DNA of 64,000 bases from Pseudomonadota bacterium. GTDB taxonomy: Bacteria; Pseudomonadota; Alphaproteobacteria; UBA2136; JAPKEQ01. The translations under genes were made by a program, and so were the position numbers. The notes below the pieces were generated by a model. That model was not told the DNA's origin and did not search any database. It saw only the letters and a program-made list of their open reading frames with translations. The stretch is taken from positions 1-64,000 of the forward strand of contig JAYZXF010000016.1 in NCBI GenBank assembly GCA_036141575.1, written 5' to 3'. This document shows positions 43,859-62,359 of this stretch, one piece after another. How positions within the stretch are numbered: the stretch's first letter is position 1; the number at the start of each line of letters is the position of its first letter.

Positions 43859-44338
43859 ATGTCGAGAACAATTGTTGAAGGCTTCCACAAAGGCAGCGCT
43901 CATGAGCTTGCAACTCTGCTGATGGAGCGGACCATTGAAGAGATTCATGTTCCTGCCAAAGGCAACGTGGATTTCATTGCCTTCAAGCTGGACGGCAATG
44001 ACAAACTCACCATCCTGCAGCTGGCCAACAGCCTGAGTGCAGGCAATGATGGTGAGATCAAACTGATCTGCACCAACTGGCACATTGGCCGTCCTGGCGA
44101 CTTCACCAAGTCACCTGTGGTGCGTGTGGAAGAAGAGGTTCGCCTCTCCGCCATCCACTACAAAATTTGGTGCGGCAATCACGTACCGATCGAGATTACC
44201 ATTTTCTCGAGCAGTGAAGAAACGGTTCTGCTGCGCGACGCAGGCCTGGTCAAAGAATTTGACAACTGGGACGCTGAAACGCTGAAGCTGAAGCACAACT
44301 TCATCACCGACACCATGCGCCACGAACAGGCCGCATAA
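43859..44338 (+). CDS. Unknown 159-aa beta-rich cytoplasmic protein (cluster protein 1)
   Basis: Start at the ATG after GGAGACATCT; the earlier ATG overlaps GGAG. Alternating strands (FIAFKLDGNDKLTILQL, GEIKLICTNWHI, VPIEITIFSSSEET) with a helical C-terminus. No signal peptide. Similar in style to the cluster proteins at 44942, 45779, 46700 and 47248: a strand with (T/A)I-x-x-I or KxIxxI followed by ITIxxxxxEE-type strands. Unknown function. Confidence 0.8.
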   Translation: MSRTIVEGFHKGSAHELATLLMERTIEEIHVPAKGNVDFIAFKLDGNDKLTILQLANSLSAGNDGEIKLICTNWHIGRPGDFTKSPVVRVEEEVRLSAIHYKIWCGNHVPIEITIFSSSEETVLLRDAGLVKEFDNWDAETLKLKHNFITDTMRHEQAA

Positions 44339-44357
44339 CACTGCAAAACGAGTAACT

Positions 44358-44379
44358 AAGCCCCTACGGGGGCTTTTTT
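44358..44379 (+). terminator. Intrinsic terminator
   Basis: AAGCCCC/GGGGGCTT then T5; ACGA in the spacer. Confidence 0.75.
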
Positions 44380-44480
44380 ACATCGTCAGGTTCTGCTTTC
44401 GCTCTTTTATTTTGTAAATATAAAATTTACACTTAGGTGCTTCCCCATGTATGACTTCCCTCCCTAATAGGCCAACACCT

Positions 44481-44510
44481 ATTGTATTCCCTACAGACCA
44501 TCCCCATAAC
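44481..44510 (+). promoter_or_regulatory. Sigma-32-like promoter of a three-gene cassette
   Basis: ATTGTAT - 14 nt - CCCCATAAC. Confidence 0.55.
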
Positions 44511-44555
44511 TTAAGGTACAACAACTCTTTCTGACCATTTTTGGAGGGCTTACCT

Positions 44556-44756
44556 ATGCGTAACCTTATGAATACCACTGCCATCATTGGCACCGCCTGT
44601 CACTTGGCTTTGGGAGCTGATGCTTTGGTTCCCCAGTACGAACCATTTCGGCAAGGCAGCTTTATGATGCTTGGCGACAACATTGTGGCGCTGGCCAGTG
44701 ACCACCTGAGTACTCAGGAGGTTTACACCCCTGCCAACCTGAATGAAGCTGCATAA
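44556..44756 (+). CDS. Unknown 66-aa protein, first gene of small operon
   Basis: ATG after GGAGG. Residues 5-22 (MNTTAIIGTACHLALGAD) are moderately hydrophobic, not a convincing signal peptide. The remainder is polar, with a strand-like SFMMLGDNIVALASD. The TAA stop overlaps the next ATG. Unknown function. Confidence 0.65.
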   Translation: MRNLMNTTAIIGTACHLALGADALVPQYEPFRQGSFMMLGDNIVALASDHLSTQEVYTPANLNEAA

Positions 44757-44926
44757 TGAAAGCAGCCCTCACCACGGCAGAGCGCAATGCGCTCATGCCG
44801 TTCTCAACCATCTATGTGCATAAGCGCGGCAGTGTTGCCGTGCTGAACGCACACACCGCTATGGCAAACGGCACAAAGCTGTTCTGCCTGTTTTACCCTG
44901 TTAAACCTGCGGCAAACCAGCCGTAA
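44756..44926 (+). CDS. Unknown 56-aa protein, translationally coupled
   Basis: Too short for most gene finders but well supported: its ATG overlaps the previous stop (TAATG), its frame is CTG/GC-rich like the neighbours, and it ends 15 nt before the next start. Sequence begins MKAALTTAERNALMPFSTIY and has VHKRGSVAVLNAH in the middle. No recognised family. Confidence 0.6.
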   Translation: MKAALTTAERNALMPFSTIYVHKRGSVAVLNAHTAMANGTKLFCLFYPVKPAANQP

Positions 44927-44941
44927 CCTTTGGAGACACAC

Positions 44942-45631
44942 ATGTCCAATATCACCATTGATCGCACTCAAATTCGTGAAGCTCTGTGGGGCAGCTCGTT
45001 TCAAGAGGTGCGCGTCAGTCCCAAGGCTATCGCCTTCATAGACACCTATGACAACATCAATCACATCTTCGAACCGCAAAACGCGGTCATCGTTGAAGTG
45101 GTCAATGGCGGTTCGCCATGCTGGCAGTACGTGAATGGCATCCAGCCCAAAGACATACAACATGCAGAACCCTTTGGCTGGTTTGAGGTGGAAACCACCC
45201 TTGAAGACTCTGTTGAGCTTCCCTTTCTGGGCGGCAAGATTGTCACCATCAGGGTTGTTGATGCCGATCTCATGGGTGGTATTCTGCCGATTGAGATCAA
45301 ACTCTACGCCCGTGACAAGGACGCAGAGGTCAGCCTCACACGCGCTTTCCGTGATGATGAAGATATGCTTCTTACCATGTGCCAACCTGTCAGGTACATG
45401 CAAGTGAGCATGCCAGTGAAGATCGGCAGCGAAGCCCTGAGCATCAGTGATCTCGTGGAAAAGAACAACGCTTTTGCCGAGTCTCTGGAAGAAGAGGACG
45501 ACCAGCCTGAAATTGGCCAAGGCATGAGCCTTGGTGATTTGCTGACCAAGCATTTGACAGACAAAAGCCAAGAAGGCATCCAACAGGACCCAAACGCCCT
45601 GTGGTTAGAACCAGACTGGCGCATCGATTAA
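44942..45631 (+). CDS. Unknown 229-aa beta-rich acidic protein (cluster protein 2)
   Basis: ATG after TTGGAG. An N-terminal half of strands (QEVRVSPKAIAFIDTYD, NAVIVEVVNGG), a middle block VTIRVVDADLMGGILPIEIKLYARDKDAE comparable to VPIEITIF in cluster protein 1, then an acidic, probably flexible C-terminus (EEEDDQPEIGQG). Soluble. Third gene of a unit with the 66- and 56-aa proteins. Unknown function. Confidence 0.78.
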   Translation: MSNITIDRTQIREALWGSSFQEVRVSPKAIAFIDTYDNINHIFEPQNAVIVEVVNGGSPCWQYVNGIQPKDIQHAEPFGWFEVETTLEDSVELPFLGGKIVTIRVVDADLMGGILPIEIKLYARDKDAEVSLTRAFRDDEDMLLTMCQPVRYMQVSMPVKIGSEALSISDLVEKNNAFAESLEEEDDQPEIGQGMSLGDLLTKHLTDKSQEGIQQDPNALWLEPDWRID

Positions 45632-45640
45632 AAAACATAG

Positions 45641-45671
45641 AAAAGTCCCCTCCGGGGGGCTTTTCTTTTTT
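45641..45671 (+). terminator. Intrinsic terminator
   Basis: GAAAAGTCCCC/GGGGGGCTTTTC then T6. ATCGAT here precedes and overlaps the stop codon. Confidence 0.85.
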
Positions 45672-45682
45672 GCTTCACAAGC

Positions 45683-45713
45683 CTTGAATTTCGGATTTTC
45701 ATAACCATAATTT
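45683..45713 (+). promoter_or_regulatory. Sigma-32-like promoter
   Basis: GCCTTGAAT - 15 nt - CCATAATTT, followed by AACTATC. Confidence 0.65.
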
Positions 45714-45778
45714 AACTATCAACCCATTCCCTCTTTCTTAGGGGGCTATCTTTTACCGACTTACCTATGGAGGAATCT

Positions 45779-46564
45779 ATGTCGGATTTTGGAAACAAGC
45801 TGGCCGCGGCACTGACTGGTAACGACGCATTTGTCAACCGCCCCAAAGGCGAAGGCACTGTGTCCGTCAACGGCCAGATTGCGTCTTCTGGAGAGGAGCT
45901 GCTGGAAAACACCCATCACCGCACATTGGTGAACGCCATGGAAGAAAAAGTGATCACGGGCATCACCGTGGACACCATCGGCCGGAGCATCACCTTTCAA
46001 CGTGATGGCGAGGACGATATCGTCGCAAGCTTCCTGCATGGGGACCGTAAAGCGCAAATCATCCAAGTGGTGGCGCCGAAAACCATGGGAGAGTTCCAGA
46101 TTTGTGAAGTGCTCAAATACTCGCAAGAGGTCACAGGGTACTCCACACGTAACGGCGAACCCACCTACCCCGGCTTCACGGGCATGATGACGCGCATCAC
46201 CATCACACAGACATCGTTTGAAGAAAGCGATGCCATTGATATCTGGATTCTGTCTCCCGAGGCAACCCAGCCGTATCAGTGTGATGAGCTGGTGGTGAAG
46301 GACTTGGTTGACACTGTCGACCACGATCATCAGGAACTGAGCCCTCTGTCTCTCAGCTCGCAAAGCACCTACTTCAATTACGCATGGTGGGATTGCTGCC
46401 CAGACCTGCGCATCCCTTCCGCCGTTGAGATGGAAATTGCAAACGCCTATGCAGCGATTGATGCTGAGCAGGACGCTCTGGAAAACATCAACAACCAAGC
46501 AGAAGCGGAAGCCTTTGCCGAAGAACAGGCAAGAGACGATGCCGATAACCATTGGCATCCCTAA
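45779..46564 (+). CDS. Unknown 261-aa acidic protein (cluster protein 3)
   Basis: ATG after GGAGG. Core strands EEKVITGITVDTIGRSITFQRDGED and GMMTRITITQTSFEESDAIDIWIL parallel blocks in cluster proteins 2, 4 and 5. The C-terminal 60 residues are helical and Ala/Glu/Asp-rich (a repeated EAEAFAEEQARDDADN pattern). Contains a WWDCCPDL motif with adjacent Cys. No export signal. Largest member of the group; unknown function. Confidence 0.78.
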   Translation: MSDFGNKLAAALTGNDAFVNRPKGEGTVSVNGQIASSGEELLENTHHRTLVNAMEEKVITGITVDTIGRSITFQRDGEDDIVASFLHGDRKAQIIQVVAPKTMGEFQICEVLKYSQEVTGYSTRNGEPTYPGFTGMMTRITITQTSFEESDAIDIWILSPEATQPYQCDELVVKDLVDTVDHDHQELSPLSLSSQSTYFNYAWWDCCPDLRIPSAVEMEIANAYAAIDAEQDALENINNQAEAEAFAEEQARDDADNHWHP

Positions 46565-46576
46565 GCGATAAAACAT

Positions 46577-46606
46577 AAAAACACCCCCGCAAGGGGGTGT
46601 TTTTGT
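46577..46606 (+). terminator. Intrinsic terminator
   Basis: AAAACACCCCC/GGGGGTGTTTTT; CGAT in the spacer. Confidence 0.85.
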
Positions 46607-46616
46607 TTATAGAGGC

Positions 46617-46647
46617 GTTGAAAATGGAAAAATAATCCTCATAATTT
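46617..46647 (+). promoter_or_regulatory. Sigma-32-like promoter
   Basis: CGTTGAAA - about 14 nt - CTCATAATTT, then AACCATC. Confidence 0.6.
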
Positions 46648-46699
46648 AACCATCCAAACGCATTATGCGTGCCTTTTTTTCTAACATTGGAGATCCTTT

Positions 46700-47128
46700 A
46701 TGGGACTGACTTTCCTTCGTGAATTGAACGATGTACTGGTTGGCAAGCAGCTAGACTTCATCAACAAAACGACCGACGACCAGTTCCTCACATTTGTGAC
46801 GGACGAAGGCGACGGCCTGCCCCACACCTATGGCTTTGCCGTACGGGGCACAGAAACAGCTCGTATTTCGGCTGTTATCAATACAACTTACGGCCTCGGC
46901 TACAAAGTGGCCGCCGTCAGCATGCTGCGCTTTGACAGCACCACACGCATCACTCTGATCATGGATCAAGATGAACGTGGAGGCAGCGAACGCATCAACA
47001 TTGATGTGAAATGCGGTGATGACGGCTATGCTCCGGTTCTGCGCTTTGTAGAACCGGCGCAATACCCTGAATCCGCCCTGTACATTCAAAATGTCCGCAC
47101 GGACTATGAAGAATATGCAGCCGCCTGA
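46700..47128 (+). CDS. Unknown 142-aa beta-rich protein (cluster protein 4)
   Basis: ATG after TTGGAG. Opens with a helix (FLRELNDVLVGKQLDFI), then DDQFLTFVTDEGDGLPHTYGF, KVAAVSMLRFDSTTRITLIMDQDE and a strand pair. The order GK-x-(L/I)-x-x-I ... (L/I)TF(V/I)TDEG ... ITLIMDxDE resembles cluster protein 5 (GKTIKAIES, ITFITDEGEPF, DFLMESDE). Soluble, monocistronic, unknown function. Confidence 0.8.
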   Translation: MGLTFLRELNDVLVGKQLDFINKTTDDQFLTFVTDEGDGLPHTYGFAVRGTETARISAVINTTYGLGYKVAAVSMLRFDSTTRITLIMDQDERGGSERINIDVKCGDDGYAPVLRFVEPAQYPESALYIQNVRTDYEEYAAA

Positions 47129-47137
47129 ACGATGATG

Positions 47138-47166
47138 AAAGAGCCCCTGTTAAGGGGCTCTTTTAC
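47138..47166 (+). terminator. Intrinsic terminator
   Basis: AAAGAGCCCCT/AGGGGCTCTTTT; ACGAT follows the stop codon. Confidence 0.85.
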
Positions 47167-47178
47167 TTGCTTCACTCC

Positions 47179-47210
47179 CTTGAATTTCGCTCAATCATAC
47201 CCATACTATA
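47179..47210 (+). promoter_or_regulatory. Sigma-32-like promoter
   Basis: TCCCTTGAAT - 14 nt - CCCATACTATA, then ACTATC. Confidence 0.7.
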
Positions 47211-47247
47211 ACTATCAATAACTTTCACTTTTAGCTAGGAGGACACC

Positions 47248-47760
47248 ATGTCCCGCACTCTTGAAGCACTTCGTACTGCCGCAAACACTGCTTGCATCAC
47301 AGGTAACTTTTCAGCCGCTCGCTGCTTTGCATCGGCCATGCGCGCAGCCAGCAAAGTTCAGTCTTTCGATGGTATGGAAATCATGAATGGCAAAACCATC
47401 AAGGCCATCGAATCCGACATCGTGCAGGATGGTGAACATCGCTACGGCATCACGTTCATCACCGATGAAGGGGAACCTTTCACCTTCACCTGCTCAGGCA
47501 TTGACGGCCAGCTGCTGGACGAAGAATCGTTCATCTCCACCATTCACGGTGTTCAGGGCATGATCGGCAAAACCGTTCACAGCCTCAGCCATGTGGATTT
47601 CCTGATGGAAAGCGATGAGCGCCGCGGCGCCTACACGCTGACGGCCACCGATGGCACTGAACTGAACATCGTCGTGGTGACGAAAGGGCCGGAAAAAACG
47701 GTTCTGCGCCACAATGATTTCGGCTGCCACTTCCACGCCCCTCTCAAAACGGATGTCTAA
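47248..47760 (+). CDS. Unknown 170-aa protein with duplicated beta unit (cluster protein 5)
   Basis: ATG after AGGAGG. A helical N-terminal 45 residues (ALRTAANTACITGNFSAARCF) precede two similar units: MNGKTIKAIESDIV..YGITFITDEGEPFTF and MIGKTVHSLSHVDFL..AYTLTATDGTELNIVV. Each is GK-(T/V)-x-x-(I/L) followed by strands with a TD(E/G)G turn, showing an internal duplication of the unit seen once in cluster protein 4. Unknown function; soluble. Confidence 0.8.
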   Translation: MSRTLEALRTAANTACITGNFSAARCFASAMRAASKVQSFDGMEIMNGKTIKAIESDIVQDGEHRYGITFITDEGEPFTFTCSGIDGQLLDEESFISTIHGVQGMIGKTVHSLSHVDFLMESDERRGAYTLTATDGTELNIVVVTKGPEKTVLRHNDFGCHFHAPLKTDV

Positions 47761-49695: not shown

Positions 49696-50883
49696 TTATT
49701 CCAGCCCGTCCGTTAGGACTTGGCGTACTTTCCGTGCGGAAGGTTGAGCGTCGTAAGGGGCTGCAATGAACACTTTCACACAGTCCTTGACTCTGTCGCC
49801 TTCAGCTAAAATACGACTCACGGTATCACCGTTGCCGTTCACATAACCACGGAAATCCCAACCAGCATGCACAGCCTTACAGGCCACGTCAGCCCAGGAG
49901 GCATCCTTAATGGTGATGGGGTAGTCATTGGTATCAATGCCGCCCGCTTGGAAGTTATCGCGGTTCAGCGCATAAACACCAGGAGACAACGCCTCAGAAA
50001 CCAAAATACCGGGGTGGTAGTGGTCGGCAAGCACAGCAGATGTTGCGCCGTTTGTTTTCATATATGCCAGATCACGGTCAGCCGAAGCTTCAGCAATTAC
50101 CAAACCACGGTAAGCAAAGTTCTGCCGAATCCGATACACAATGGACGAAATCACATCGTCAGCATCTTTACGTGTCGGATCAGGGCAAAGAACCAGCACC
50201 ATGGCAGCACTGCGTACGTTGGCTTTTTCAAGATCACGCTCATCCGAGCCTGACCCACGGTAGCCTGTGGCGTTCATGTCGAGCTTTTTCGCAATGCTTT
50301 GCAGCTCGGCAGGCACGTTTTCAGCAAGAAACTGAATCTCGTGCTTCATCAAGTCGGGGTGCCCTTTGATTTGCTCAAGAAGGCTTTCAACGTAATGGGC
50401 CGTCCCTTGAACAGGAAGGCCAACAATCAGGATATGGTCTGTCATGTCCTTCCATTCCCATCTGTAAGTTTGTTTCAGTTCGCGTTGGTAGGAGTGATAC
50501 TCCGAATGATACGTCAGGATACCGGGCAACTGGAAGATGCCGTAAGTCCCGATCGCAATGGTTGTGAGCCGCCCAAAGGGGGTGGTCGCACTAATATCAC
50601 CGTAACCAACAGTGGTGAAGGTTGCCCAAGTGACCCAAATGGCGTCCATGGCTTTCACATCTAGGGTGAAAACCATAATCCACACATGTTTTAGGGTAAC
50701 CAGATACGCAACAAAAACATTGCCAACCATGTTCTCTGGAAGAAGTTCCAAGTACATGAACATGAGTGCGTGCGCCACGAAGGCAAACGCAACACGTTTA
50801 AAGCATTTGTTTCTGAGCTGAAGGTAGTCGTTGGGCTCAAGGTAGCGCTTCTCGAAGCGCTTCCGCCAAAAAAAGAGACTCAT
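49696..50883 (-). CDS. Potassium channel with cytoplasmic RCK/TrkA-N-like domain
   Basis: 395 aa from MSLFFWRKR (AAGGAG upstream). Membrane helices at about 28-48 and 54-75, pore helix and selectivity filter TVGYGD at 91-96, inner helix about 103-123. From about 147 a Rossmann-like domain (MTDHILIVGLPVQGTAHYVE) and a second lobe to the C-terminus, as in MthK/Kch-type channels gated by ligand or nucleotide. It borders the MotA/MotB-like operon and the Ter operon, so ion homeostasis under envelope stress is a plausible role. Strongly biased to GC-ending codons, as in cassettes. Confidence 0.9.
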   Translation of the reverse strand: MSLFFWRKRFEKRYLEPNDYLQLRNKCFKRVAFAFVAHALMFMYLELLPENMVGNVFVAYLVTLKHVWIMVFTLDVKAMDAIWVTWATFTTVGYGDISATTPFGRLTTIAIGTYGIFQLPGILTYHSEYHSYQRELKQTYRWEWKDMTDHILIVGLPVQGTAHYVESLLEQIKGHPDLMKHEIQFLAENVPAELQSIAKKLDMNATGYRGSGSDERDLEKANVRSAAMVLVLCPDPTRKDADDVISSIVYRIRQNFAYRGLVIAEASADRDLAYMKTNGATSAVLADHYHPGILVSEALSPGVYALNRDNFQAGGIDTNDYPITIKDASWADVACKAVHAGWDFRGYVNGNGDTVSRILAEGDRVKDCVKVFIAAPYDAQPSARKVRQVLTDGLE

Positions 50884-50953
50884 AAGACCTCTCCTTATAA
50901 TGACAGCGCAGCTTTCTACGCGTGATGAACGATTTAGATTACAAGATTTTTCC

Positions 50954-50982
50954 ACTATACAGATTTGTTGTATACACTTCAA
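50954..50982 (-). promoter_or_regulatory. K+ channel promoter with GTATAC in spacer
   Basis: TTGAAG - 17 nt - TATAGT on the minus strand; TGTATACA directly follows the -35. Confidence 0.6.
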
Positions 50983-51000
50983 GTCTTAAAAGAAATTCTC

Positions 51001-51029
51001 CTTGATTTTAGAATTTTAATACCTATATA
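51001..51029 (+). promoter_or_regulatory. Sigma-32-like promoter of lipoprotein gene
   Basis: CCTTGATT - 14 nt - CCTATATA. Confidence 0.5.
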
Positions 51030-51076
51030 TAGCTTAATTCCCCTCACCTTCTCTCCCGTTAAAAAGGTTAACTCTT

Positions 51077-51631
51077 ATGAAACACCTTCTTTTTGCTCTT
51101 GCAGCTTTTGGCCTGCTCACCGCTTGTGACACCTCAACCAAACAAGACGCGCAGCAGATTCACATCTCTGGGCCAGCCACAGTTTCTGAAGAAGATCCTG
51201 TTCGGACATTCCTCAAAGTGAAGTTTGCCCACGTGCAATACTGCGTGCAAACCTTTGGCGTTGAAACGGCATGTACAATGGCCAGATCTGGCCACATGCC
51301 GCAGGATGCCGAAGCGATCTACGCAGAACTGAAACGGCTTGCAAAGGCTCCCAATGAAAGCTTTCAGCAGTTTTTGGTTGAAGGCCCCCAAGAGCTCACA
51401 CAGCCTGGCCAAGTCCAAACCTACGCAAGGTATCACGTCGATGGCCTTGAAGGTTCAACTCTGCACAAAGTCTGGCATGTCATCCTTGCCAGCGACGAAG
51501 GCACCACCATCACAAAGGACGTGTACTCTTTCAGCGTCCATGGCGTAAAAGACCTCTCCAGGGGAGAGCGCAAAGCCATCAACCGTCAGGTTGGGGCCAA
51601 CATTACGGCAGCTGTTCAGGCACTCCAATAA
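51077..51631 (+). CDS. Predicted lipoprotein, 184 aa
   Basis: ATG after AAAAGG. Lipoprotein signal MKHLLFALAAFGLLTAC with the acylated Cys at 17, followed by D18, which in enterobacteria favours inner-membrane retention. The mature part has two Cys (VQYCVQTFGVETACTMA), a helical middle and a beta C-terminal half. It is divergent from the K+ channel and convergent with the MotA/MotB-like operon, so it may act with them in the envelope. Unknown family. Confidence 0.85.
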   Translation: MKHLLFALAAFGLLTACDTSTKQDAQQIHISGPATVSEEDPVRTFLKVKFAHVQYCVQTFGVETACTMARSGHMPQDAEAIYAELKRLAKAPNESFQQFLVEGPQELTQPGQVQTYARYHVDGLEGSTLHKVWHVILASDEGTTITKDVYSFSVHGVKDLSRGERKAINRQVGANITAAVQALQ

Positions 51632-51644
51632 GCGATAAAACATG

Positions 51645-51675
51645 AAAAAGGCACCCAACAGGGTGCCTTTTTCTT
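51645..51675. terminator. Bidirectional terminator
   Basis: AAAAAGGCACCC/GGGTGCCTTTTT; CGAT in the plus-strand spacer. Confidence 0.85.
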
Positions 51676-52841
51676 TAGCGTCGATCAGAGTCCTCTTTGA
51701 GGATTCCAGGAAGAATAACACCACCAAAGCTGCCTTCGCTGCTTGCGGTTCCGTTATCCGTCATGGAGTTCAGCTGGTCCAAAGTAATGGCGCCAGACTC
51801 AAGAAGTTCTAGAAGCATGGCAAGTCCTCGTTCAGAGCCTTGACCACCGTTTCCGCCTTCGACTCCGTCAGCATCGCCCTCACCTTCTGATTCTCCATCT
51901 CCCTCTTCTTGTTGAGGGTCTAGAAGCTCATAAGGTGGCATTCCCGGCAGGGAAATGAGCGGTGCGCGGTTGAAGGTTCTTGACTCGAACTCTTCCAGTT
52001 TGGTGATAAAGATGATATCTGCCTGAAGCTTCAGCTCTGTCTCATCCCAAATGGTCAGAGAAGCTGTCTTCACCTCTTCGACCATAGCTCTCAGCAGAGG
52101 CTCAAGGTCAGAGGCATAAGCTGGCAGCAGGTCATGTCCAAGAAACTTTTCAAGGGCAATGGCAAAGTCTTGCACTTTAAGCTCACCATTTACCAGTTTC
52201 CAGTACACATCAAATGGCAGGCCATCTTCATGTAAAAGTTCTTGCAATACGGTTGTATCAATCGGTGTCTCATAAGAGGCAATCCGATCCAGCACCACGT
52301 CCCCAGCCTCGTTGCTTGCAATTGAGCAATAACGCGGGAAAGTTTCGCCAAATACAGCTGTGTTAGACAACAGCAGACCAATACGCTCTTCACCGCCCAG
52401 CTCATCCTGAACAGGATCAACATTCACCGTGAAGATGTTTTTCTTGGCCACCAGCGCAGGGACTTCTCTGCCGTTCAACTCAATGGTCGACTCTTCCATA
52501 ATCAGAAGGCCGTCTTGGTCAAACGCCAGCATAGGGCAAGCCCCATGTGGCATCCCTCGCCCTGTATTTTCATACAGAGTCGGCATTGAGGCACCCAGAG
52601 CCATTTGCAAAATAAAGGTCACACCGGCAACCACCGCCAAAGCCACGCCCCAAAAGCCTCTGCGATAACGCAGAACAATGTAAACGAGGCCAGCAAAGGT
52701 CACGCCAGTCATCGCCATCACACCAAAGGTGAAAGGGTCGCCGTATTCTTTTAGAAAGATGCTCCAGAGGTAACCAATTTCGGCATCCCCTGAAAACACG
52801 CTACGCCAATAGGTTGGCGACGTTAGGATTTGCCAGAACAT
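51675..52841 (-). CDS. Unknown membrane protein, fourth gene of MotA/MotB-like operon
   Basis: 388 aa from MFWQILTS (GAGGAG upstream), 13 nt after the preceding stop. Two or three N-terminal helices (about 33-52 and 59-78, FTFGVMAMTGVTFAGLVYIV and GVALAVVAGVTFILQMALGA), then a soluble domain of ~180 residues (VNVDPVQDELGGEERIGLLLSNTAVF.., IWDETELKLQADIIFITKLEEFESRTF) and a Gly/Glu/Asp-rich low-complexity tail ending near an LLELLESGAITLDQLN helix. The membrane-plus-periplasmic-type layout suggests a scaffold. Unrecognised family. Confidence 0.78.
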   Translation of the reverse strand: MFWQILTSPTYWRSVFSGDAEIGYLWSIFLKEYGDPFTFGVMAMTGVTFAGLVYIVLRYRRGFWGVALAVVAGVTFILQMALGASMPTLYENTGRGMPHGACPMLAFDQDGLLIMEESTIELNGREVPALVAKKNIFTVNVDPVQDELGGEERIGLLLSNTAVFGETFPRYCSIASNEAGDVVLDRIASYETPIDTTVLQELLHEDGLPFDVYWKLVNGELKVQDFAIALEKFLGHDLLPAYASDLEPLLRAMVEEVKTASLTIWDETELKLQADIIFITKLEEFESRTFNRAPLISLPGMPPYELLDPQQEEGDGESEGEGDADGVEGGNGGQGSERGLAMLLELLESGAITLDQLNSMTDNGTASSEGSFGGVILPGILKEDSDRR

Positions 52842-52854
52842 CACTGACTCCTCA

Positions 52855-53658
52855 TTATTGATAACGCTGCACAACAAAGGGGTACTGGGTCGTCGTATCG
52901 ATCGACTCAGGAACCAACTCATTGTTTGCGTCAATGGTGAAAGAAACCAGTGTCACCTCACGGGGTGCACGGGATGTTATTGAGATTTCCTTTTGCCCTT
53001 TATAAACCTCCACTTCACTCTCCTGGCCTTCATTGAAAACAATAAAGCCACTCACGCGAGTTATGTGGGATTCATCAAACAGCTCAGGGCGGAACAAGTC
53101 AGCGTTAATGACATACCGGCCCGGAGGCAGGAATGCATATTGGCTAAGCAGTTGTTCTGCACGCACGGTGGTATAGATGGGGTCACCCGTACCTTCATGC
53201 GTTTGATTCACAGAGCCCCGATCATCGGGTGTATGAATCATCAAGCTGTCTGTATCAGCAATACGGTGATTATAAACCACCTCCTTGCCATGTGGCGTAA
53301 TGCGCATCATCCAGAGGTCCACATCACTTGTGGCGCATTCTGGCGGAAGCTTTCTGGGGTTAAATCCAGAATCTCCAATCTGCGGGCATCGTTCGCCAAT
53401 TTTTAGGGCATAAGCGTCATTCAGGTTGCCATCCCAGCTAATCTGCGCGCGCAGAGCCACACGGCCCGGACGTTCAGCAAGAGCTGTATCTTCCGCGCCC
53501 AATGTGTCACTCACTTTCGCGAAATACACAAGGATCAAAGAAGCAGCAACAATCAGCAGCCCAAAAAACAGAACCCATTTTTGGTCCAGCAGGGCTTTAA
53601 TGTTGTTATTGGCTTCAGCCTCATTAGAGGCCGTTCCAAAACGTGTTCGACGTCTCAT
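52855..53658 (-). CDS. Single-pass membrane protein, paralogue of MotB-like protein
   Basis: 267 aa from MRRRTRF (GGAGG upstream). One TM helix at about 28-48, then a periplasmic-type domain. The C-terminal 35 residues (VTLVSFTIDANNELVPESID, then TTTQ) match the C-terminus of the preceding gene's product (TVLSFEVDENGKIIPDSID, then RETQ), and the PPGRYVINADLFRPELFD block aligns with APGHYSFNIVLDESFQD, so the two proteins are duplicates. It lacks the Asp pair before the TM. Unknown function. Confidence 0.8.
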   Translation of the reverse strand: MRRRTRFGTASNEAEANNNIKALLDQKWVLFFGLLIVAASLILVYFAKVSDTLGAEDTALAERPGRVALRAQISWDGNLNDAYALKIGERCPQIGDSGFNPRKLPPECATSDVDLWMMRITPHGKEVVYNHRIADTDSLMIHTPDDRGSVNQTHEGTGDPIYTTVRAEQLLSQYAFLPPGRYVINADLFRPELFDESHITRVSGFIVFNEGQESEVEVYKGQKEISITSRAPREVTLVSFTIDANNELVPESIDTTTQYPFVVQRYQ

Positions 53659-53716
53659 TGAGACCTCCATAGAGAGGGAAAGAAAGCACCGCCACAAACG
53701 CGGCGGTGCGCAGTGT

Positions 53717-54649
53717 TTATTGAATCAAGGGTTTGATACTGACTTGCGTCTCACGGTCAATGCTATCCGGAATGATTTTGCCATTTTCATCAACCTCAAA
53801 GCTCAGAACAGTGCGTTCAAGCATATCATCCAGGCTGGTAAACGTAACAATATCATTAAACAGAACAGTTTCCTGATCTGTCCCTTCAAACACCACAAGG
53901 TAAACCTCAAACGACACGGGCCAAGTTGGCATCGCGGGCTTAAAGTTATAGTTTGGAACCTGCATCTTCCACAGCATGTCCTGAAAACTTTCGTCCAGTA
54001 CAATGTTAAAGCTGTAGTGACCAGGCGCCAAGAACTTGTGGCGGTACGTCATTTCTTCCGTACGCATAGGTTGGTACAAGGGGGCGCTGTTATAGCCATC
54101 CCCTGAACGTCTCGGCGTGAAAGGCCGGCCATGAGTTGGGTTACTGTTCAAGTAAGCCGGAACACTGTAAGCAAACGCACCTTCAGCACTGGGGAGCTTA
54201 TTGGGAGAGTCAAGGCTCAACACATCGTAAACCGTACCATCAGGCGTGGTGTAACGTGCGTAAAGGTCTTGGTCTACAATAATGCATTCCACAGGACGCT
54301 TCAGATAGATCTCACGGTATTCTTCTTTAATGAAGGGCGTACCTTCAACAAAGTGGCTTAAATCACCAAGCCAGTGGCCATCAATTTCACGAGGGCATTG
54401 CCCTTCGCGTACATAACCACCTTCTTGGCCATAACCTGAACGCGCCTCAAAACGAAGCGCAATCCCCGGAGCCCAGCTTGACGCAGGGCCGCCACCAGCT
54501 TCACCCTTGGAAAACAGCACCAAAAGAGCAACAACAATAATCAGCAGGATGAAGATCATGGCTGACAACAAGTCATCCATCACCGCATCTTGTTCTGCCT
54601 CATTGTCATTATTCCCCCAGTGCCGTCCAAAAGACCGCTGGTGTATCAT
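53717..54649 (-). CDS. MotB/ExbD/ZorB-like single-pass membrane protein
   Basis: 310 aa from MIHQRSF, whose ATG overlaps the MotA-like stop (ATGA). Acidic N-terminus with D25-D26 just before the only TM helix (DDLLSAMIFILLIIVVALLVLF), the arrangement of the proton-carrying Asp in MotB, ExbD and ZorB. No OmpA-type peptidoglycan-binding domain is evident; the periplasmic part is a beta-rich domain shared with the next gene product. Order and coupling with the MotA-like gene support a stator-like complex. Confidence 0.78.
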   Translation of the reverse strand: MIHQRSFGRHWGNNDNEAEQDAVMDDLLSAMIFILLIIVVALLVLFSKGEAGGGPASSWAPGIALRFEARSGYGQEGGYVREGQCPREIDGHWLGDLSHFVEGTPFIKEEYREIYLKRPVECIIVDQDLYARYTTPDGTVYDVLSLDSPNKLPSAEGAFAYSVPAYLNSNPTHGRPFTPRRSGDGYNSAPLYQPMRTEEMTYRHKFLAPGHYSFNIVLDESFQDMLWKMQVPNYNFKPAMPTWPVSFEVYLVVFEGTDQETVLFNDIVTFTSLDDMLERTVLSFEVDENGKIIPDSIDRETQVSIKPLIQ

Positions 54650-55419
54650 GACGCATGCGTCTCCTTGCCAGCACCATTCATCCAAGCAAGAAAGCCGGAA
54701 GAATAGAGCTCCAAGTGCAAGTCATTCGCAATGTCTTGGACAGTGCGCTCGGTACGGTCAATGGCATGACCAATGAAAACCGAACCAAACAGCAGACCAG
54801 CAAGCGTACTCATGATCGCAAGACCAAGGTACTCAAACATCATCACCACAAACTGGAAAACAGCTTCTGTTTCACCAGAGGCCATGATGTCTGCGCCAGC
54901 AGTTGCCAGACGAATACCGACATAAGTCCCCACGATACCGTAGGTCAGAAGGTTGCGTTTTACCCAATGGATTCCTTTGGCGCGTTGCGCATGCTTTGTG
55001 GCGTACCAATCCAGCAGGACCAGGTCATCCACTTCCACATCCTTTTGTCCACGCAGCCCTTGCAACTTTGCAAGAACTTGAGCCAAAAAGGTGTTCTTTT
55101 CCTTGTCATTCAGCGTGTCAGTGTCCAAAGCGAGCTTATAGCCCTCTTCTCCGCCACTCACTTGCTGTTTGACTTTGGCCAGCAGAGCCACTTCACGATC
55201 CACCATAGCTTGGTACGGCAAAACCTGAAAAAGCGCTGCGCCAAGGAAGATCAGTGCCATGGCACCAATCCAGACGTGGGTCAGCATGTCATCTGGCAGG
55301 ATCAGGTCAAACAGACCAAAAATCGAGCCGCCAATGAAGAATCCAAGCACCATCAGTGCTTTCAATATCAGTTGATTTCGTGCCGTTTTGAGATAGGCAC
55401 CATTTTGTACAGAATTCAT
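54646..55419 (-). CDS. MotA/TolQ/ExbB/ZorA-like proton-channel protein
   Basis: 257 aa; AAGGAG before the ATG. Four TM helices at about 18-40, 46-66, 156-176 and 197-218, with a ~90-residue cytoplasmic loop between the second and third. The GIVGTYVGIRLATAG and LGLAIMSTLAGLLFGSVFIG segments fit the conserved core of the MotA/TolQ/ExbB family. First gene of a four-gene operon (proton channel, MotB-like, its paralogue, membrane scaffold). Not flagellar: no other motility genes are nearby. Zorya defence ZorA is a formal alternative, but no ZorC/D/E follows. Confidence 0.78.
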   Translation of the reverse strand: MNSVQNGAYLKTARNQLILKALMVLGFFIGGSIFGLFDLILPDDMLTHVWIGAMALIFLGAALFQVLPYQAMVDREVALLAKVKQQVSGGEEGYKLALDTDTLNDKEKNTFLAQVLAKLQGLRGQKDVEVDDLVLLDWYATKHAQRAKGIHWVKRNLLTYGIVGTYVGIRLATAGADIMASGETEAVFQFVVMMFEYLGLAIMSTLAGLLFGSVFIGHAIDRTERTVQDIANDLHLELYSSGFLAWMNGAGKETHAS

Positions 55420-55815
55420 CTTAGTGTCTCCTTATAAGAGAGAGGATGATGCGCGAAAATGCGCAAAAGACAGATTCAGATGCATAAATTGCATACAATG
55501 CTCTCATTTAATATGTATACTGTCAAGCCGTTAGATTTATAAAACGTGCATTAAGCCTCTGCTTTCGTGCTCAAATGCTCTTCATATTCACATTTAATTG
55601 AATTGAAAAATCTTAGAAAAAATCTCCATATCTGATTGACAAAACAAGCATTGTATACTAAAGGTGGCATTGTACACGCATCTGCATACAGTTTTTTATA
55701 GTGCATTCCTTGTGAATCGGTAACGATTAACATGCTGTACACTCGTGCCATCACCTCTAGGTGCATGGCTTTCATTGCCCCTTGTGGGTTTCTCACTACT
55801 ATAAGGAGTTCCATC
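55420..55815. promoter_or_regulatory. Divergent regulatory region between proton-channel and Ter operons
   Basis: No gene. AT-rich, with two GTATAC motifs (55515-55520 and 55653-55658), two TTGACA boxes in opposite orientation (near 55520 on the minus strand and 55636-55641 on the plus strand), and a TGCATAAATTGCATAC inverted repeat. Positions of the -10 elements are ambiguous. Probably controls both operons. Confidence 0.5.
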
Positions 55816-56385
55816 ATGGAATTTTCGCTTGAAGAAAAACCGTCCTTCGTTCTGCAGGAAAAGAAACCGTTCTATTTCGGCCTGGGCTGGGACTGTTCGT
55901 TTGACGTGGACCTGATCGCTGTTGTTCTGACCGATGGCAAACTGACCGGCACGCCGGACTTTGTCTATTACGGTAACCAGAGCCACGGTTCTGGCGGTGT
56001 CCAGCTGAGCGATGACGCCCAAGACGGCGGCGGCGATGACGGTGATGATGAATTCGCAATCATCGACGTGTCGAAGCTGCAACCGAACCAAAGCGTTGCC
56101 ATCGTGGTCAACATTGCGAACGGCGCCAAAGAAGGCAAGAACTTCAGCCAGATCGGCAACCCGTATGTGCGGGTTTGTGACGGTTCGGATGAAAACTCGC
56201 CGGAACTGCGCAAGTTTACCCTGTCCAAGGGCGCAACCAAGACCGATGTTGCCATCGAATTCGGCCGCATTGAGTGCGTGAACGGCGACTGGTCCTTCAA
56301 CGGTACCGGCGCTGCTCTGGGCACCAATGGTGAGGTGATTCCGATTGCCAACAAATATGGCGCCGGCTTCAACCCGAACGCCTAA
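55816..56385 (+). CDS. TerD-family protein (Ca2+-binding, stress/tellurite-resistance type)
   Basis: 189 aa; ATG after AAGGAG. TerD pattern throughout: FGLGWDCSFDVDLIAVVLTDGKL, DFVYYGNQ, acidic loop DDAQDGGGDDGDDE (residues 66-79, where Ca2+ ligands lie), DVSKLQPNQSVAIVVNI, and a final GDWSFNGTGAALGTNG. TerD proteins act in membrane-linked stress complexes with TerB/TerC. Cytoplasmic, no signal. First gene of a TerD-TerB-TerD unit opposite the proton-channel operon. Confidence 0.92.
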   Translation: MEFSLEEKPSFVLQEKKPFYFGLGWDCSFDVDLIAVVLTDGKLTGTPDFVYYGNQSHGSGGVQLSDDAQDGGGDDGDDEFAIIDVSKLQPNQSVAIVVNIANGAKEGKNFSQIGNPYVRVCDGSDENSPELRKFTLSKGATKTDVAIEFGRIECVNGDWSFNGTGAALGTNGEVIPIANKYGAGFNPNA

Positions 56386-56398
56386 TTCTCGCGAACAG

Positions 56399-56420
56399 GG
56401 TGCAGGTTTTCCTGCACCCT
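56399..56420 (+). terminator. Attenuator-like hairpin inside Ter operon
   Basis: GGGTGCAGG/CCTGCACCC with only a short T-poor tail; may reduce, not stop, transcription. Confidence 0.5.
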
Positions 56421-56453
56421 TCCATTCACCCCTAACACCAAAGGAGGCTAACC

Positions 56454-57086
56454 ATGTTCAGTGGTCTCGGCCGAAAACTAAAAGGGCTTGCCAACATTGG
56501 TGTGGGTAAGCTAGAGGAGCTGATTGGCCAAATCGGTGACTTGGATGAAAAAGACCGGCAAATGATAGAGCACGCTGTTGCTGTTGCTGCTGGTCTGACT
56601 GCTGGCGCAAATGGCCAGCTGAAGCCTGAAGAGGCTGAAAAGATCCAAGTGATTATCAGCTTGCATAAGCTGACAAAAGGCTTTGACGGCGCTCAATTTA
56701 TGGCAACTGTCACTGAGGTTGTCAAAAATGTGGAAATGGTGAGCATGGATTTTGCGCTCAGCAACTATGCTGATGACGTGAATGTGCTGAAAAGCATCCC
56801 TGCTCTTGCCAATGTGTCTGGCCAACTGTGTGTTGAAATCGCCTCTGCGGATGGCGACTTTGATGCAGACGAAGCCGAAGTTGTGAAAACAATCTTCGAA
56901 AAAATTGGTTTGAACCCAAATGAGTTCCCCAAGCTTCGTGATGCGTTGGACCAAGCTGCGGCTTGGAACCAAAGCCCAGCAGCACCCACTCCTCCTCCGC
57001 AGCAAACCCGGCCAACACCGCCGGCAGCACCTGCACCTTCAACCCCTCCTGCAAGCACACCTGACGACGACGATCCGTGGTCGTAA
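56454..57086 (+). CDS. TerB-family protein with proline-rich tail
   Basis: 210 aa; ATG after AAAGGAGG. Helical TerB-like domain about 10-165: DLDEKDRQMIEHAVAVAAGL, then ASADGDFDADEAEVVKTIFE (the ADG-x-x-(D/E)-x-x-E acidic turn of TerB). A Pro-rich flexible tail (172-205) ending DDDDPWS follows, probably a partner-binding or membrane-proximal linker. In known Ter systems TerB bridges TerD and membrane components; here the membrane partner could be the tail-anchored TerD or the proton-channel proteins. Confidence 0.85.
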   Translation: MFSGLGRKLKGLANIGVGKLEELIGQIGDLDEKDRQMIEHAVAVAAGLTAGANGQLKPEEAEKIQVIISLHKLTKGFDGAQFMATVTEVVKNVEMVSMDFALSNYADDVNVLKSIPALANVSGQLCVEIASADGDFDADEAEVVKTIFEKIGLNPNEFPKLRDALDQAAAWNQSPAAPTPPPQQTRPTPPAAPAPSTPPASTPDDDDPWS

Positions 57087-57125
57087 GCTTGCGTAACTTC
57101 CCTCTAACCTGAAAAGGACTTCAAC

Positions 57126-57812
57126 ATGTTTGAACTTCAGGAAAAACAATCCTTCGACCTTACAGAAAAGGCCTCTGGCGCCACGCAGTTCTATGTCGGC
57201 GGCGGCTGGCAAGCCCCGAGCGGCAGCTGGGACTTGGACTTCAGTGCGATTGCGATCCATGACAATGGCTCGACATCCATGGCCTATTATGGCGGAAAGT
57301 CTATCCTGGGCGGCGCAATTTGCTGTGGTGATGACGAGCAGTCTGGTGGTGACGGCGTGGGCGACGATGAACATATCCTCATCGACACCAGCCGTATCCC
57401 TGCTGATGTGAACAAGGTGGCTCTGGTTGCCAACATTTACAGCGGCGGCACCTTTGGCGAAATCAAAAAGGCCTATATGCGGATCTGTAACGGATCCAGC
57501 GAAACGGCCCCGGAGCTTTTCCGCTTCCCGCTGGTGAACAACCTGTCGGGCAAGGCTGTGGAATTTGGCTTTTTGAAGCGCACCGACAGCGGTTGGGAAT
57601 TTGAAGCCACTGGCGTTGAAATCCCCAATGGCAGCCGTCTGGACAACATTCGTCCGCGCTACGGTTCCGGTGGTGGTCGCCGGCGTTCTGCACCGTCCAG
57701 CTCTGCTGGTTCGACTGCAGCACCGCAGGCCTCTTCCGGCGGCAGCAGCGCTCTGCCCATCATTCTGGTGGTGGCAGCAGCCGTTGCGGCGGCAGCATTC
57801 TTCTTGCTGTAA
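57126..57812 (+). CDS. Tail-anchored TerD-family protein
   Basis: 228 aa; ATG after AAAAGGA. TerD domain about 15-180: SWDLDFSAIAIHDNGS, MAYYGGK, a Cys- and Asp-rich loop (CCGDDEQSGGDGVGDDE), DTSRIPADVNKVALVANI, GWEFEATG. Then a Gly/Arg/Ser-rich linker and a single C-terminal TM helix (209-228, ALPIILVVAAAVAAAAFFLL), an unusual addition to TerD that would tether it to the inner membrane. The Cys pair in the Ca2+ loop is also unusual. Confidence 0.9.
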   Translation: MFELQEKQSFDLTEKASGATQFYVGGGWQAPSGSWDLDFSAIAIHDNGSTSMAYYGGKSILGGAICCGDDEQSGGDGVGDDEHILIDTSRIPADVNKVALVANIYSGGTFGEIKKAYMRICNGSSETAPELFRFPLVNNLSGKAVEFGFLKRTDSGWEFEATGVEIPNGSRLDNIRPRYGSGGGRRRSAPSSSAGSTAAPQASSGGSSALPIILVVAAAVAAAAFFLL

Positions 57813-57844
57813 CAGCCCCTGCTGAAAAATCGACCCAATGAAAG

Positions 57845-57873
57845 AAACCCCTGCGTAAAGCAGGGGTTTTTTC
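57845..57873. terminator. Bidirectional terminator between terD and nrdF
   Basis: AAACCCCTGC/GCAGGGGTTTTTT; TCGA in the spacer. Confidence 0.85.
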
Positions 57874-57890: not shown

Positions 57891-58916
<1,026 letters not shown>

Positions 58917-59031
58917 TTATTTTTCCTAAAACGTTCTCTATGAGATGAGATTTTGCTTTGGTGAAGCTGCGCCGAGTACTTCTCTCGTACTTCAGCAGCA
59001 AACCAAACAAAAGGTCACTCTTAGAGGGCGT

Positions 59032-61227
59032 TTACAAGCTGCAAGAGACACACCCTTTAACTTCTGTACCCTCTAGTGCCATTTGGCGCAGACGGATGTA
59101 GTAAATGGTTTTAATGCCTTTTTTCCATGCGTAGATTTGTGCTTTGTTAATGTCTCTTGTTGTTACTGTATCTGGGAAGAACAGTGTCAGAGACAGGCCT
59201 TGGTCTACGTGCTGAGTTGCTGCAGCGTAGGTATCAATGATTTTTTCAGGGCCAATTTCGTAAGCGTCCCTGTAGTACTCTTGGTTTTCATTATTCATGA
59301 ATGCCGCTGGGTAGTACACGCGTCCGATTTTACCTTCCTTACGAATCTCAATCTTCGACACGATTGGGTGAATAGAAGATGTTGAGTTGTTAATGTAAGA
59401 AATAGAACCTGTTGGTGGTACAGCCTGTAGGTACGAGTTGTAAATCCCGTGCTTCATCACAGATTTCTTCAGCTTTTCCCAGTCTGCTTGTGTTGGGATA
59501 TGAATGCCCGCTTTCTCAAACAGCTCTTTTACGCGTGGGGTTGCTGGTGTCCACTCTTTTTCAGTGTACTTATCAAAGTATTCACCTGTTGCGTACTTAG
59601 ACTCTTCAAAGCCTTTGAAAGCCTTGCCACGCTCTTTTGCCAGGGCGTTAGATGCTTTAACGGCATGGTATGTCACTGTGTAGAAGTAGATGTTTGTAAA
59701 GTCTACACCTTCTTCGCTACCGTAGTGAATGTGCTCACGTGCAAGGTAACCGTGCAGGTTCATTTGGCCAAGGCCAATGGCGTGCATTTCATCGTTCCCT
59801 TTCGCAACAGATGGCACACAGTCAAGGTGGCTCATTTCTGATACAGCAGTCAGCGCACGAATAGATGTTTCAACTGTTTTGCCAAAGTCTGGTGAATCCA
59901 TTGTTTTCGCAATATTCAGTGAACCTAGGTTACAAGAAATATCATTCCCCATTGTTTTGTAGTCTAGGTTTGTATCGTACTCACTTGGGCTGTTGACCTG
60001 TAGAATCTCAGAGCAAAGGTTACTCATGGATACACGGCCTTTAACCGGGTTGGCTTTGTTTACTGTATCTTCAAACATGATGTACGGGTAGCCAGACTCA
60101 AACTGGATTTCCGCAATTGTTTGGAACAGTTCACGTGCGTTAATTTTTGTTTTCTTAATGCGTGGGTTTTCCACCATTTCGTCGTACTTTTCAGTCACTG
60201 AAATTTCAGAGAATGGAACGCCGTAAATGCGCTCAACATCATATGGTGAGAACAGGTACATGTTCTTGTTCTCTTTTGCGAGTTTGAACGTAATATCTGG
60301 GATCACAACACCAAGAGAAAGAGTCTTAATACGGATCTTCTCATCTGCGTTTTCACGCTTGGTATCCAGGAACTTCATGATGTCTGGGTGGTGTGCGTTT
60401 AGGTAAACGGCACCGGCACCTTGTCTTGCGCCAAGCTGGTTGGCGTATGAAAATGAATCTTCAAGAAGCTTCATCACTGGAATCACACCAGAAGATTGGC
60501 CTTCAACTTTCTTAATGGGTGCGCCTGTCTCACGTAGGTTTGTCAGCATAAGAGCAACGCCTCCGCCACGCTTAGAGAGCTGTAGAGATGAGTTAATCCC
60601 GCGAGAGATCGATTCCATGTTGTCCTCTACACGAAGCAGGAAGCAAGACACAAGCTCACCACGTTGCTTTTTACCCGCGTTTAGGAATGTCGGCGTTGCT
60701 GGCTGGAAGCGCCCGCCAATGATTTCATCAACAAGCTGTGTTGCGAGCTTTTCATCACCACGTGCAAGGGTAAGAGCTGTCATCACAACACGATCTTCGT
60801 AACGCTCTAGGTAGCGTGAGCCGTCAAATGTTTTAAGTGTGTAAGACGTGTAGTATTTGTAAGCACCAAGAAACGCAGGGAAACGGAATTTTTTACCGTA
60901 AGCGTGGTCGTACAAGCCAGAAATAAAGTCAAACTCGTACTGGCCAAGAACTTCGCTCTCGTAGTAACCCTTCATTGTCAGGTGACCAAGCTTTTCTTCT
61001 AGGTTGTGGAAGAACACAGTATTTTGATTTACATGCTGCAAGAAGTACTGACGCGCGGCTTCTTTATCTTTATCAAACTGAATTTGGCCGTTTTCATCAA
61101 CCAGGTTGAGCATTGCATTGAGGTCAAAATAACTCAGCTCAGATGTATCATCTGCGTTATGTACAAGCTCTAGGCCTGTGTCCTCGTTCTCTAAGATGCT
61201 TGTTTGAGCGTTTTTTGCTGCGTCCAT
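59032..61227 (-). CDS. nrdE: Class Ib ribonucleotide reductase alpha subunit
   Basis: 731 aa, typical NrdE length. Reduces NDPs to dNDPs. Visible: [10 protein letters not shown] (first active-site Cys), [27 protein letters not shown] with the radical-site region, [18 protein letters not shown], and the C-terminal redox pair CVSC five residues from the end, which NrdH reduces. It lacks the N-terminal ATP cone of NrdA-type enzymes. Its start overlaps nrdI by 37 nt. Confidence 0.96.
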
Positions 61228-61622
61228 AGTTTTCCTAGTCCTTCTTGTACTCGTCTTACGTCAGTTGGTGTGCCTCTGAGTTCAAAGCGGTAGAGCATCG
61301 GCACGTTGCACTTCCTTGAGATTACATCGCCTGCATAAGCGTAGTATTCTCCAAAATTAGTATTGCCGCTACCAATCACACCTTGGAGATGGGCACGGTT
61401 ATTGGGGTCGTTGAGAAAGCGGATCACCTGTTTAGGCACTGCGCCGCTTCCATCGTCAGCTGCATATGTTGGGCAAATAAGGACAAAAGGCCGTGTCATC
61501 TCTAGATGTGGATCTTTTGGCGATGTAGGGATGCGAAAGGCATCCATCTCTAGCTTTTCAACAAAGTGATGCGTATTGCCTGAACTGGTTGAGAAGTAAA
61601 CAACACATGGGGGCTGCATCAT
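61191..61622 (-). CDS. nrdI: NrdI flavodoxin-like protein
   Basis: 143 aa from MMQPPCVV (AAGGA upstream). FMN-binding signature [18 protein letters not shown], then [19 protein letters not shown] and the terminal [18 protein letters not shown], all typical of NrdI, which supplies oxidant for Mn-cofactor assembly in NrdF. Short gap from nrdH and overlap with nrdE indicate one operon. Confidence 0.95.
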
Positions 61623-61647
61623 GGCCTTTGTCCTTATAGCATTAAAG

Positions 61648-61887
61648 TTATGCAACCATGCGGCTTGGCGTCAGCGTCGCAATTTTGTCTGGACGGAAAC
61701 CAGACCAGTGGTCGTCCTCTGTTACCACAACAGGGGCTTGGCGGTAGCCAAGTTCAAGAACAGTGTTCATCGCTTCTTCATCTTGCATGATGTCGATCAG
61801 GCTGTACTCAATACCTTTGCGGTCGAGTTCTTTATAAGTTGCTACGCATTGCACGCACGCAGGTTTTGTATAAACGATAACAGACAT
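61648..61887 (-). CDS. nrdH: NrdH glutaredoxin-like redoxin
   Basis: 79 aa from MSVIVYTK. Active site C11-V-Q-C14, then [15 protein letters not shown], a QAPVVV cis-Pro motif and WSGFRPDKI, matching NrdH. It is the reductant for NrdE and is itself reduced by thioredoxin reductase. First gene of nrdHIEF, downstream of NrdR boxes. A frame extends 28 residues upstream into the leader but lacks a ribosome binding site. Confidence 0.95.
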
Positions 61888-62064
61888 GGCCTGACCCTTT
61901 TTATTATTTTTATTATTTGTGGGTACAGCACCATATATTGCACCCGAATTTTGTATATCATGCCTTGTCACAGGACAGCTTAAACAGCTCTTTAAAGTTG
62001 ATTTCTCTTACAACTCAACAGCTTGAAGAGTGTGCTGGCGTTGTATTCACTTTTTGTCCCTCTG

Positions 62065-62113: not shown

Positions 62114-62250
62114 TTCGCTATTTTGGCTATACATCTGCTTTTTGTGTAAAAACAATGTTCTGAGAGGTGATTTTTTTGAAATTTTTATGAGCAGAGAAAA
62201 TGCATACTATGCATACATGTTGAGAGAAAGAAAAAGAGCCTTTAAAACGA

Positions 62251-62281
62251 TTGAAACCCCCTTGTTCCGAGGGGGTTTCAA
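62251..62281 (-). terminator. tRNA-Thr terminator
   Basis: TTGAAACCCCC/GGGGGTTTCAA followed on the minus strand by TCGTTTT. Confidence 0.8.
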
Positions 62282-62283
62282 CA

Positions 62284-62359
62284 TGGTGCCGGTTGCAAGA
62301 TTTGAACTCGCGACCTACTGATTACAAATCAGTTGCTCTACCAACTGAGCTAAACCGGC
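62284..62359 (-). tRNA. tRNA-Thr (anticodon TGT)
   Basis: 76 nt with encoded CCA. Acceptor GCCGGTT pairs with AACCGGC; anticodon loop TTTGTAA between ACTGA/TCAGT stems; T-loop GTTCAAATC. Confidence 0.97.

Follow-up and report, generated by a model that had tools for sequence, protein, structure and literature searches.

A conserved MotA/MotB-like operon with a predicted TerD-like head, next to a K+ channel gene and a Ter operon in an alphaproteobacterium

We analysed a stretch of 64,000 nucleotides (the window) from a member of the Alphaproteobacteria (assembly GCA_036141575.1, contig JAYZXF010000016.1, positions 1 to 64,000). The subject of this work is a block of nine genes within it (Table 1). 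A leftward four-gene operon encodes a MotA/ExbB-like channel subunit, two MotB/ExbD-like subunits and a third membrane protein. Divergent to it lies an operon for TerD, TerB and a second TerD, and a lipoprotein gene and a K+ channel gene stand on the other side. In our judgement, the region probably consists of three separate units side by side: the K+ channel, the four-gene motor operon and the Ter operon. The product of the motor operon is most likely an envelope motor driven by protons, with a head of the TerD type that may bind metal.

All nine open reading frames listed in a first-pass annotation of this DNA were found in place. Some starts were revised by alignment or by the Shine-Dalgarno sequence, namely those of the channel (50883), the third component (52841), MotB2 (53658), MotB1 (54649) and TerD (55816). 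The lipoprotein gene, the RCK-type K+ channel and the divergent genes for TerD, TerB with a proline-rich tail and TerD with a hydrophobic C-terminal tail were likewise recovered as annotated (lipobox and Pfam matches in Table 1). The cassette-like codon use ascribed to the block was not: the nine genes lay at the 33rd–47th percentile of the other genes of the window. The G+C content at third codon positions was high in the two TerD genes only. A promoter scan gave no excess over shuffles. None of the four leftward genes had a meaningful Pfam match of its own.

Table 1. Genes and features of the block, with positions in the window
Feature	Position	Strand	Basis and remarks
K+ channel with RCK domain	49696..50883	-	Ion_trans_2 E 1.5e-9, RCK E 4.4e-6; judged outside the system
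Lipoprotein gene	51077..51631	+	Lipobox LLTAC; convergent with the motor operon
Terminator-like hairpin closing the motor operon	51644..51673	-	13-pair stem just 3' of the P0003 stop
Third component ('scaffold'), P0003	51675..52841	-	Two hydrophobic, probably transmembrane segments and a large C-terminal region
MotB/ExbD-like subunit 2 (MotB2), P0004	52855..53658	-	Asp25 in the transmembrane segment; beta-sandwich head, predicted to be TerD-like, in which DxD, DDxG and E motifs are present; Cys pair
MotB/ExbD-like subunit 1 (MotB1), P0005	53717..54649	-	N-terminal transmembrane segment with Asp; TerD-like head (predicted), DDxG motif lost; Cys pair
MotA/ExbB/TolQ-like proton-channel subunit (predicted), P0006, 257 amino acids	54646..55419	-	Predicted fold, profiles, motifs
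Intergenic region shared by the divergent operons (motor and Ter)	55420..55815	.	AGGAG-type Shine-Dalgarno sequences precede the MotA-like gene and the TerD gene
TerD, P0007	55816..56385	+	PF02342 E 9e-28
TerB with proline-rich, acidic C-terminal tail, P0008	56454..57086	+	PF05099 E 2e-8
TerD with C-terminal hydrophobic tail anchor, P0009	57126..57812	+	PF02342 E 3e-28; last ~20 residues hydrophobic
Terminator-like hairpin closing the Ter operon	57842..57872	+	Hairpin search

The channel subunit P0006 had been annotated as a MotA/ExbB/ZorA-like protein, and the channel fold was indeed present in its structure prediction. The AlphaFold model (predicted local distance difference test score, pLDDT, 89.4) matched ExbB, TolQ, ZorA and MotA best, with Z 9–12.5 over ~200 residues. 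A profile of the MotA-like family found MotA (E 7e-8) and ZorA (E 1.3e-6) among PDB sequences, and PomA and ExbB chains were matched as well. The Pfam family PF01618 (MotA_ExbB) was found in 33 of the 36 family members, P0006 not being one of them. The motifs GxxGTxxG and TTLxG are conserved: G161, G164, T165 and G168 were invariant, and T204, T205, L206 and G208 were present in at least 90% of members. The predicted fold and these Gly/Thr motifs of the pore helices place P0006 in the MotA/ExbB/TolQ proton-channel superfamily.

Close relatives of P0006 were found neither in plasmids and phages nor in a first genome scan; a second genome scan gave a single locus (WGLU01000003.1) in a genome of another family of the class, referred to here as G196. 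The gene order there is that of the window (MotA, MotB1, MotB2, third protein), the P0005 relative is 44–45% identical, and the P0003 homologue in the same operon position is 36% identical. Other families carry a shorter, three-gene form consisting of MotA, a MotB of ~200 amino acids and the third protein. With profiles built from these relatives, the MotB family was found in 38 of 289 genomes of the class and in 16 of 319 genomes drawn across the phylum. MotA, MotB and the third protein stood together in 31 of the 36 loci fetched from outside the window, the exceptions being contig ends or divergent copies. The operon of the window is a duplicated variant of a module that is widespread across Pseudomonadota.

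The window's own genome holds a second, divergent three-gene module on another contig, C11 (7493–10133 of the fetched locus L076), downstream of a tRNA synthetase-like gene. A module of the C11 type is also present in a congener of the window's organism, and in G196 there is a similar copy that has a neighbouring gene in common. Azospirillum replicons encode a relative that is 56–57% identical to one family member, at a place that the sequence record leaves unannotated. Apart from the generic channel subunit, this branch of motors is not covered by any family of Pfam, NCBIfam or PADLOC, and PHROGs gave nothing for the motor proteins. Among the best 10 of 161 literature matches, no publication mentioned TerD or joined it with ExbD, MotB or TolR. 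The module with its TerD-like head is real and conserved, and apparently an undescribed variant of ion-driven motors.

P0004 and P0005 are paralogues (phmmer E 9e-7), in agreement with the duplicated MotB/ExbD-like partner of the first-pass annotation. An Asp is found at the start of the transmembrane helix in both, and this residue (Asp25 in P0004) was kept in 37 of the 38 members of the MotB family. In the AlphaFold model of P0004 (mean pLDDT 78.8), a long N-terminal helix (residues 12–53) is followed by a beta-sandwich. Within this head, D112, D114, E168, G180 and E234 were invariant across the 38 members. D145, D146 and G148 were near-invariant and lost in the MotB1 paralogues only.

The fold of the head is predicted to be TerD-like. 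When the P0004 model was compared using a second structural aligner (VIA), TerD structures led the ranking: 3ibz (Z 10.2), 2qng (10.1), 2qz7 (9.7) and 2kxt (8.7), all four assigned to the TerD family by a profile search of their sequences. The alignments spanned 144–150 residues at 3.6–4.1 Å. The rows that followed had Z values of ~5, except 7jtk_A (8.7) and 9a6r_B (8.1). At the profile level, the head scored 30.0 against 78 TerD domains (P 3.8e-4), while 60 column shuffles gave 11.9 +/- 1.9 (maximum 17.7) and the reversed profile gave 12.1. The alignment pairs W...DxD...Y...DD...E. A sequence kinship of the head with TerD is therefore likely.

Several points weigh against this assignment. The structural match depends on the second aligner and its 3.6–4.1 Å alignments; Foldseek alone found nothing significant for the P0004 model (best E 0.067), whose mean pLDDT is below 80. 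The hhalign probability of the profile comparison was only 36%. The Pfam TerD family matched none of the 38 MotB members, and MotB1 is without the DDxG motif. For the motor as a whole, its topology and subunit ratio, the flow of ions through it and its binding of metal are inferred. A different reading of the head has to be considered here, namely a DUF2135/YfaP-like or other calcium-binding beta-sandwich that resembles TerD by shared architecture only. DUF2135 was weakly matched by 8 of the 38 members (best E 2.3e-4), and the general DxDL...D pattern would fit. The leading position of TerD structures in the structural ranking and a TerD profile score far above the shuffles speak against it, and we regard it as doubtful but not far-fetched. 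The two assignments may also be compatible, if both families are related. A peptidoglycan-binding head was considered as well and rejected: no such Pfam domain was found in any of the 38 members, and the predicted head is TerD-like.

The Arg-rich N-terminus of P0004 and a Cys pair, which is present in all four heads of the duplicated type and would fit a periplasmic disulfide, suggest that the head lies in the periplasm. The head probably binds metal through its DxD, DDxG and E residues, judging by the motifs. One MotB paralogue keeps the full acidic motif and the other does not, which suggests a heterodimer; MotB1 and MotB2 likely form one.

The third component, P0003, has no Pfam family. It had been annotated as a membrane scaffold, and a membrane accessory protein is in fact conserved as the third partner of the module: a short version adjoins MotA and MotB in most loci. 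The three-gene module is immediately followed by a lipoprotein gene in seven loci, which belong to three families. Six of these lipoproteins were aligned, and all share the lipobox Cys and a weak DUF3108-like domain. It is plausible that the downstream lipoprotein is the envelope partner of the head. The lipoprotein of the window had no Pfam family and no homologue near other modules. A gene for a pyrroloquinoline quinone (PQQ) alcohol dehydrogenase was found within a few kb in 6 of the 36 module loci, compared to none of the 10 TerD control loci. PQQ alcohol dehydrogenases are a calcium- or lanthanide-dependent type of enzyme, so this proximity fits the metal theme, weakly and suggestively. 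Cytochrome c, pentapeptide-repeat or nuclease-like genes are further neighbours that some module loci have in common. In G196, a KatG-like catalase-peroxidase gene, identified by eye, lies just downstream of the four-gene operon (12081–14354 of locus L010).

In ExbBD, TolQR and MotAB, the passage of protons at a membrane Asp drives the rotation or pulling of a partner dimer in a pentamer. By analogy, the MotA/ExbB-like subunit would form a pentameric channel in the inner membrane, and the two MotB/ExbD-like subunits would provide the proton-accepting Asp and carry the TerD-fold heads in the periplasm, which gives a putative 5:2 assembly. The third membrane protein would complete the complex. 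Proton flow past the Asp would rotate or pull the MotB dimer inside the MotA pentamer and in this way move the heads. Probably with a metal ion bound, the heads would work on a partner in the envelope; in several relatives this may be the lipoprotein whose gene comes next in the operon. In the copy of the window, one MotB paralogue has retained the acidic site and the other has lost part of it, as would suit the likely heterodimer. The proteins of the TerD-TerB-TerD operon probably form a separate complex in the cytoplasm, which would respond to metal or stress and be fixed to the membrane by its tail-anchored TerD.

The K+ channel carries a TVGYGD filter. In the congener (genome ~85% complete), a K+ channel of 51% identity was found with its left neighbours kept, and neither TerD nor the four-gene operon was found. 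The window stretch from ~51.0 to 62.2 kb (~11 kb) is absent there. As the channel is kept in the congener without this stretch, it belongs to an older locus of the genus. In the congener, the end of a tRNA-Thr gene (window 62246–62329) recurs as a copy of 84 bp and 98% identity, which begins 132 bp from the channel. The tRNA-Thr gene (window 62284–62359) appears to be an integration site. In the congener (contigs C124 and C125), a copy of the 3' half of tRNA-Thr with its flank adjoins the K+ channel, and the complete tRNA lies at another contig end, as expected of an integrated element; an element of the congener's own seems to sit in the anticodon region of tRNA-Thr. No attachment-site duplication was found around the 11-kb block in the window. 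Relatives of the channel (phmmer E<0.01) were found neither in the flanks of other modules nor in those of ten TerD loci, with ~8 kb examined on each side where the contig allowed.

The stretch missing from the congener also includes a ribonucleotide reductase operon with NrdF-, NrdE-, NrdI- and glutaredoxin-like genes (window 57891–61971). The small-subunit match in the congener was only 27% identical. Further to the left, the window holds a row of small genes in rightward orientation (43847–47760), alike in layout and of unknown type, only some of which have relatives in the congener.

The genome of the window holds a single Ter locus. A search of the whole genome, which is 97.7% complete, gave no match to TerC (PF03741), while control genomes did match; the locus is therefore not a canonical Ter system. 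TerD was found in 11 of the 289 genomes of the class and in 39 of the 319 genomes from across the phylum. The module and TerD occurred together in this genome only, where ~1.4 (class) and 2.0 (phylum) genomes were expected by chance. G196 has no TerD, and no relative of the K+ channel was found around its four-gene operon. The conserved neighbourhood that the first-pass annotation proposed to look for was thus not found in either sample.

These data bear on the idea that the motor and Ter operons are one system in this lineage, in which the tail-anchored TerD anchors the cytosolic TerD and TerB and the motor replaces TerC. The divergent operons share a single intergenic region, the congener lacks both units at one and the same position, the genome has a single Ter locus and no TerC, and the head of MotB is itself TerD-like by prediction. 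On the other hand, the pair is present in no other genome of the two samples, the same four-gene operon occurs in G196 without TerD, and the absent block also holds the unrelated ribonucleotide reductase operon, so that mere co-insertion or co-loss could account for the shared presence. We consider a single system unlikely. Equally improbable is the extended form, in which a periplasmic TerD-fold motor and the cytosolic and tail-anchored TerD/TerB make up a TerC-less Ter system that converts metal or envelope stress into mechanical work. The divergent position of the motor beside the Ter operon is intriguing but so far unique, and a functional tie of the two has this single case in its favour. 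TerD and the motor may still be linked in another way than first proposed, namely through the TerD-like head. The preferred reading of separate units leaves the divergent adjacency of such a head to the only Ter operon of the genome as an unexplained coincidence, which counts against it.

A connection with the Zorya defence system had also been suggested, and the block could be read as an anti-phage system resembling Zorya, in which the motor is of the ZorAB type and the Ter proteins are the effector. P0006 matched the PADLOC profile of ZorA (E 4.8e-6) and the ZorA fold (Z 10–11), and TerD relatives occur in phage genomes. The ZorA matches do, however, follow from the shared superfamily, and PADLOC gave ZorA only. 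In Zorya, ZorB has a peptidoglycan-binding head, ZorA has a long cytoplasmic tail, and effector genes are carried along (PMC11890865). In contrast, the head of MotB was not peptidoglycan-binding by any test, and P0006 terminates after the helix of residues 243–249, right behind the channel helices of its AlphaFold model. Effectors of the ZorC/D or ZorE type were not present in the block, and no helicase or nuclease of that kind recurred beside the module. The suggested connection was not borne out, and an anti-phage system of this kind is very unlikely. Least credible of all is the original proposal that the nine genes, the K+ channel included, form one membrane stress system, which is suggested by their adjacency in this one genome and contradicted by the channel kept alone in the congener, the lack of co-occurrence elsewhere in the two samples and a codon use that is ordinary for the window.

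Motors of the ion-driven 5:2 type supply the power for motility, the uptake of nutrients, the upkeep of the outer membrane and phage defence; what distinguishes them is largely the head of the MotB/ExbD subunit. A TerD-like head on a widespread branch would, if true, extend these motors by one more kind, and the poorly understood TerD fold would gain a defined mechanical and topological setting. The module could be tested in culturable hosts such as Azospirillum.

Compared to known systems, the operon shares with Zorya the ZorA-type channel domain, by sequence and by fold, and differs in the tail, head and effectors described above. The channel fold is closest to ExbB/TolQ of the Tol-Pal and Ton systems, and the lipoprotein gene that follows in several relatives recalls Pal. 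Here, no TolA/TonB-like linker was recognised, and the lipoprotein is DUF3108-like rather than OmpA-like. With terZABCDEF, the locus has the TerD and TerB families in common, encoded divergent to the motor, and the predicted TerD fold and acidic motif of the MotB head. The differences are the genome without TerC, the tail anchor of one TerD and the position of a TerD-like head on a motor transmembrane segment, probably in the periplasm. The likeness to ExbB-ExbD, TolQ-TolR and MotA-MotB comprises the channel fold, the GxxGTxxG and TTLxG motifs, a partner with one N-terminal, Asp-bearing transmembrane segment and the adjacent genes. What sets the operon apart from these pairs is the predicted TerD-like head where they have a TolR/ExbD or OmpA-like domain, the additional membrane protein, which is conserved, and the duplication of the partner.

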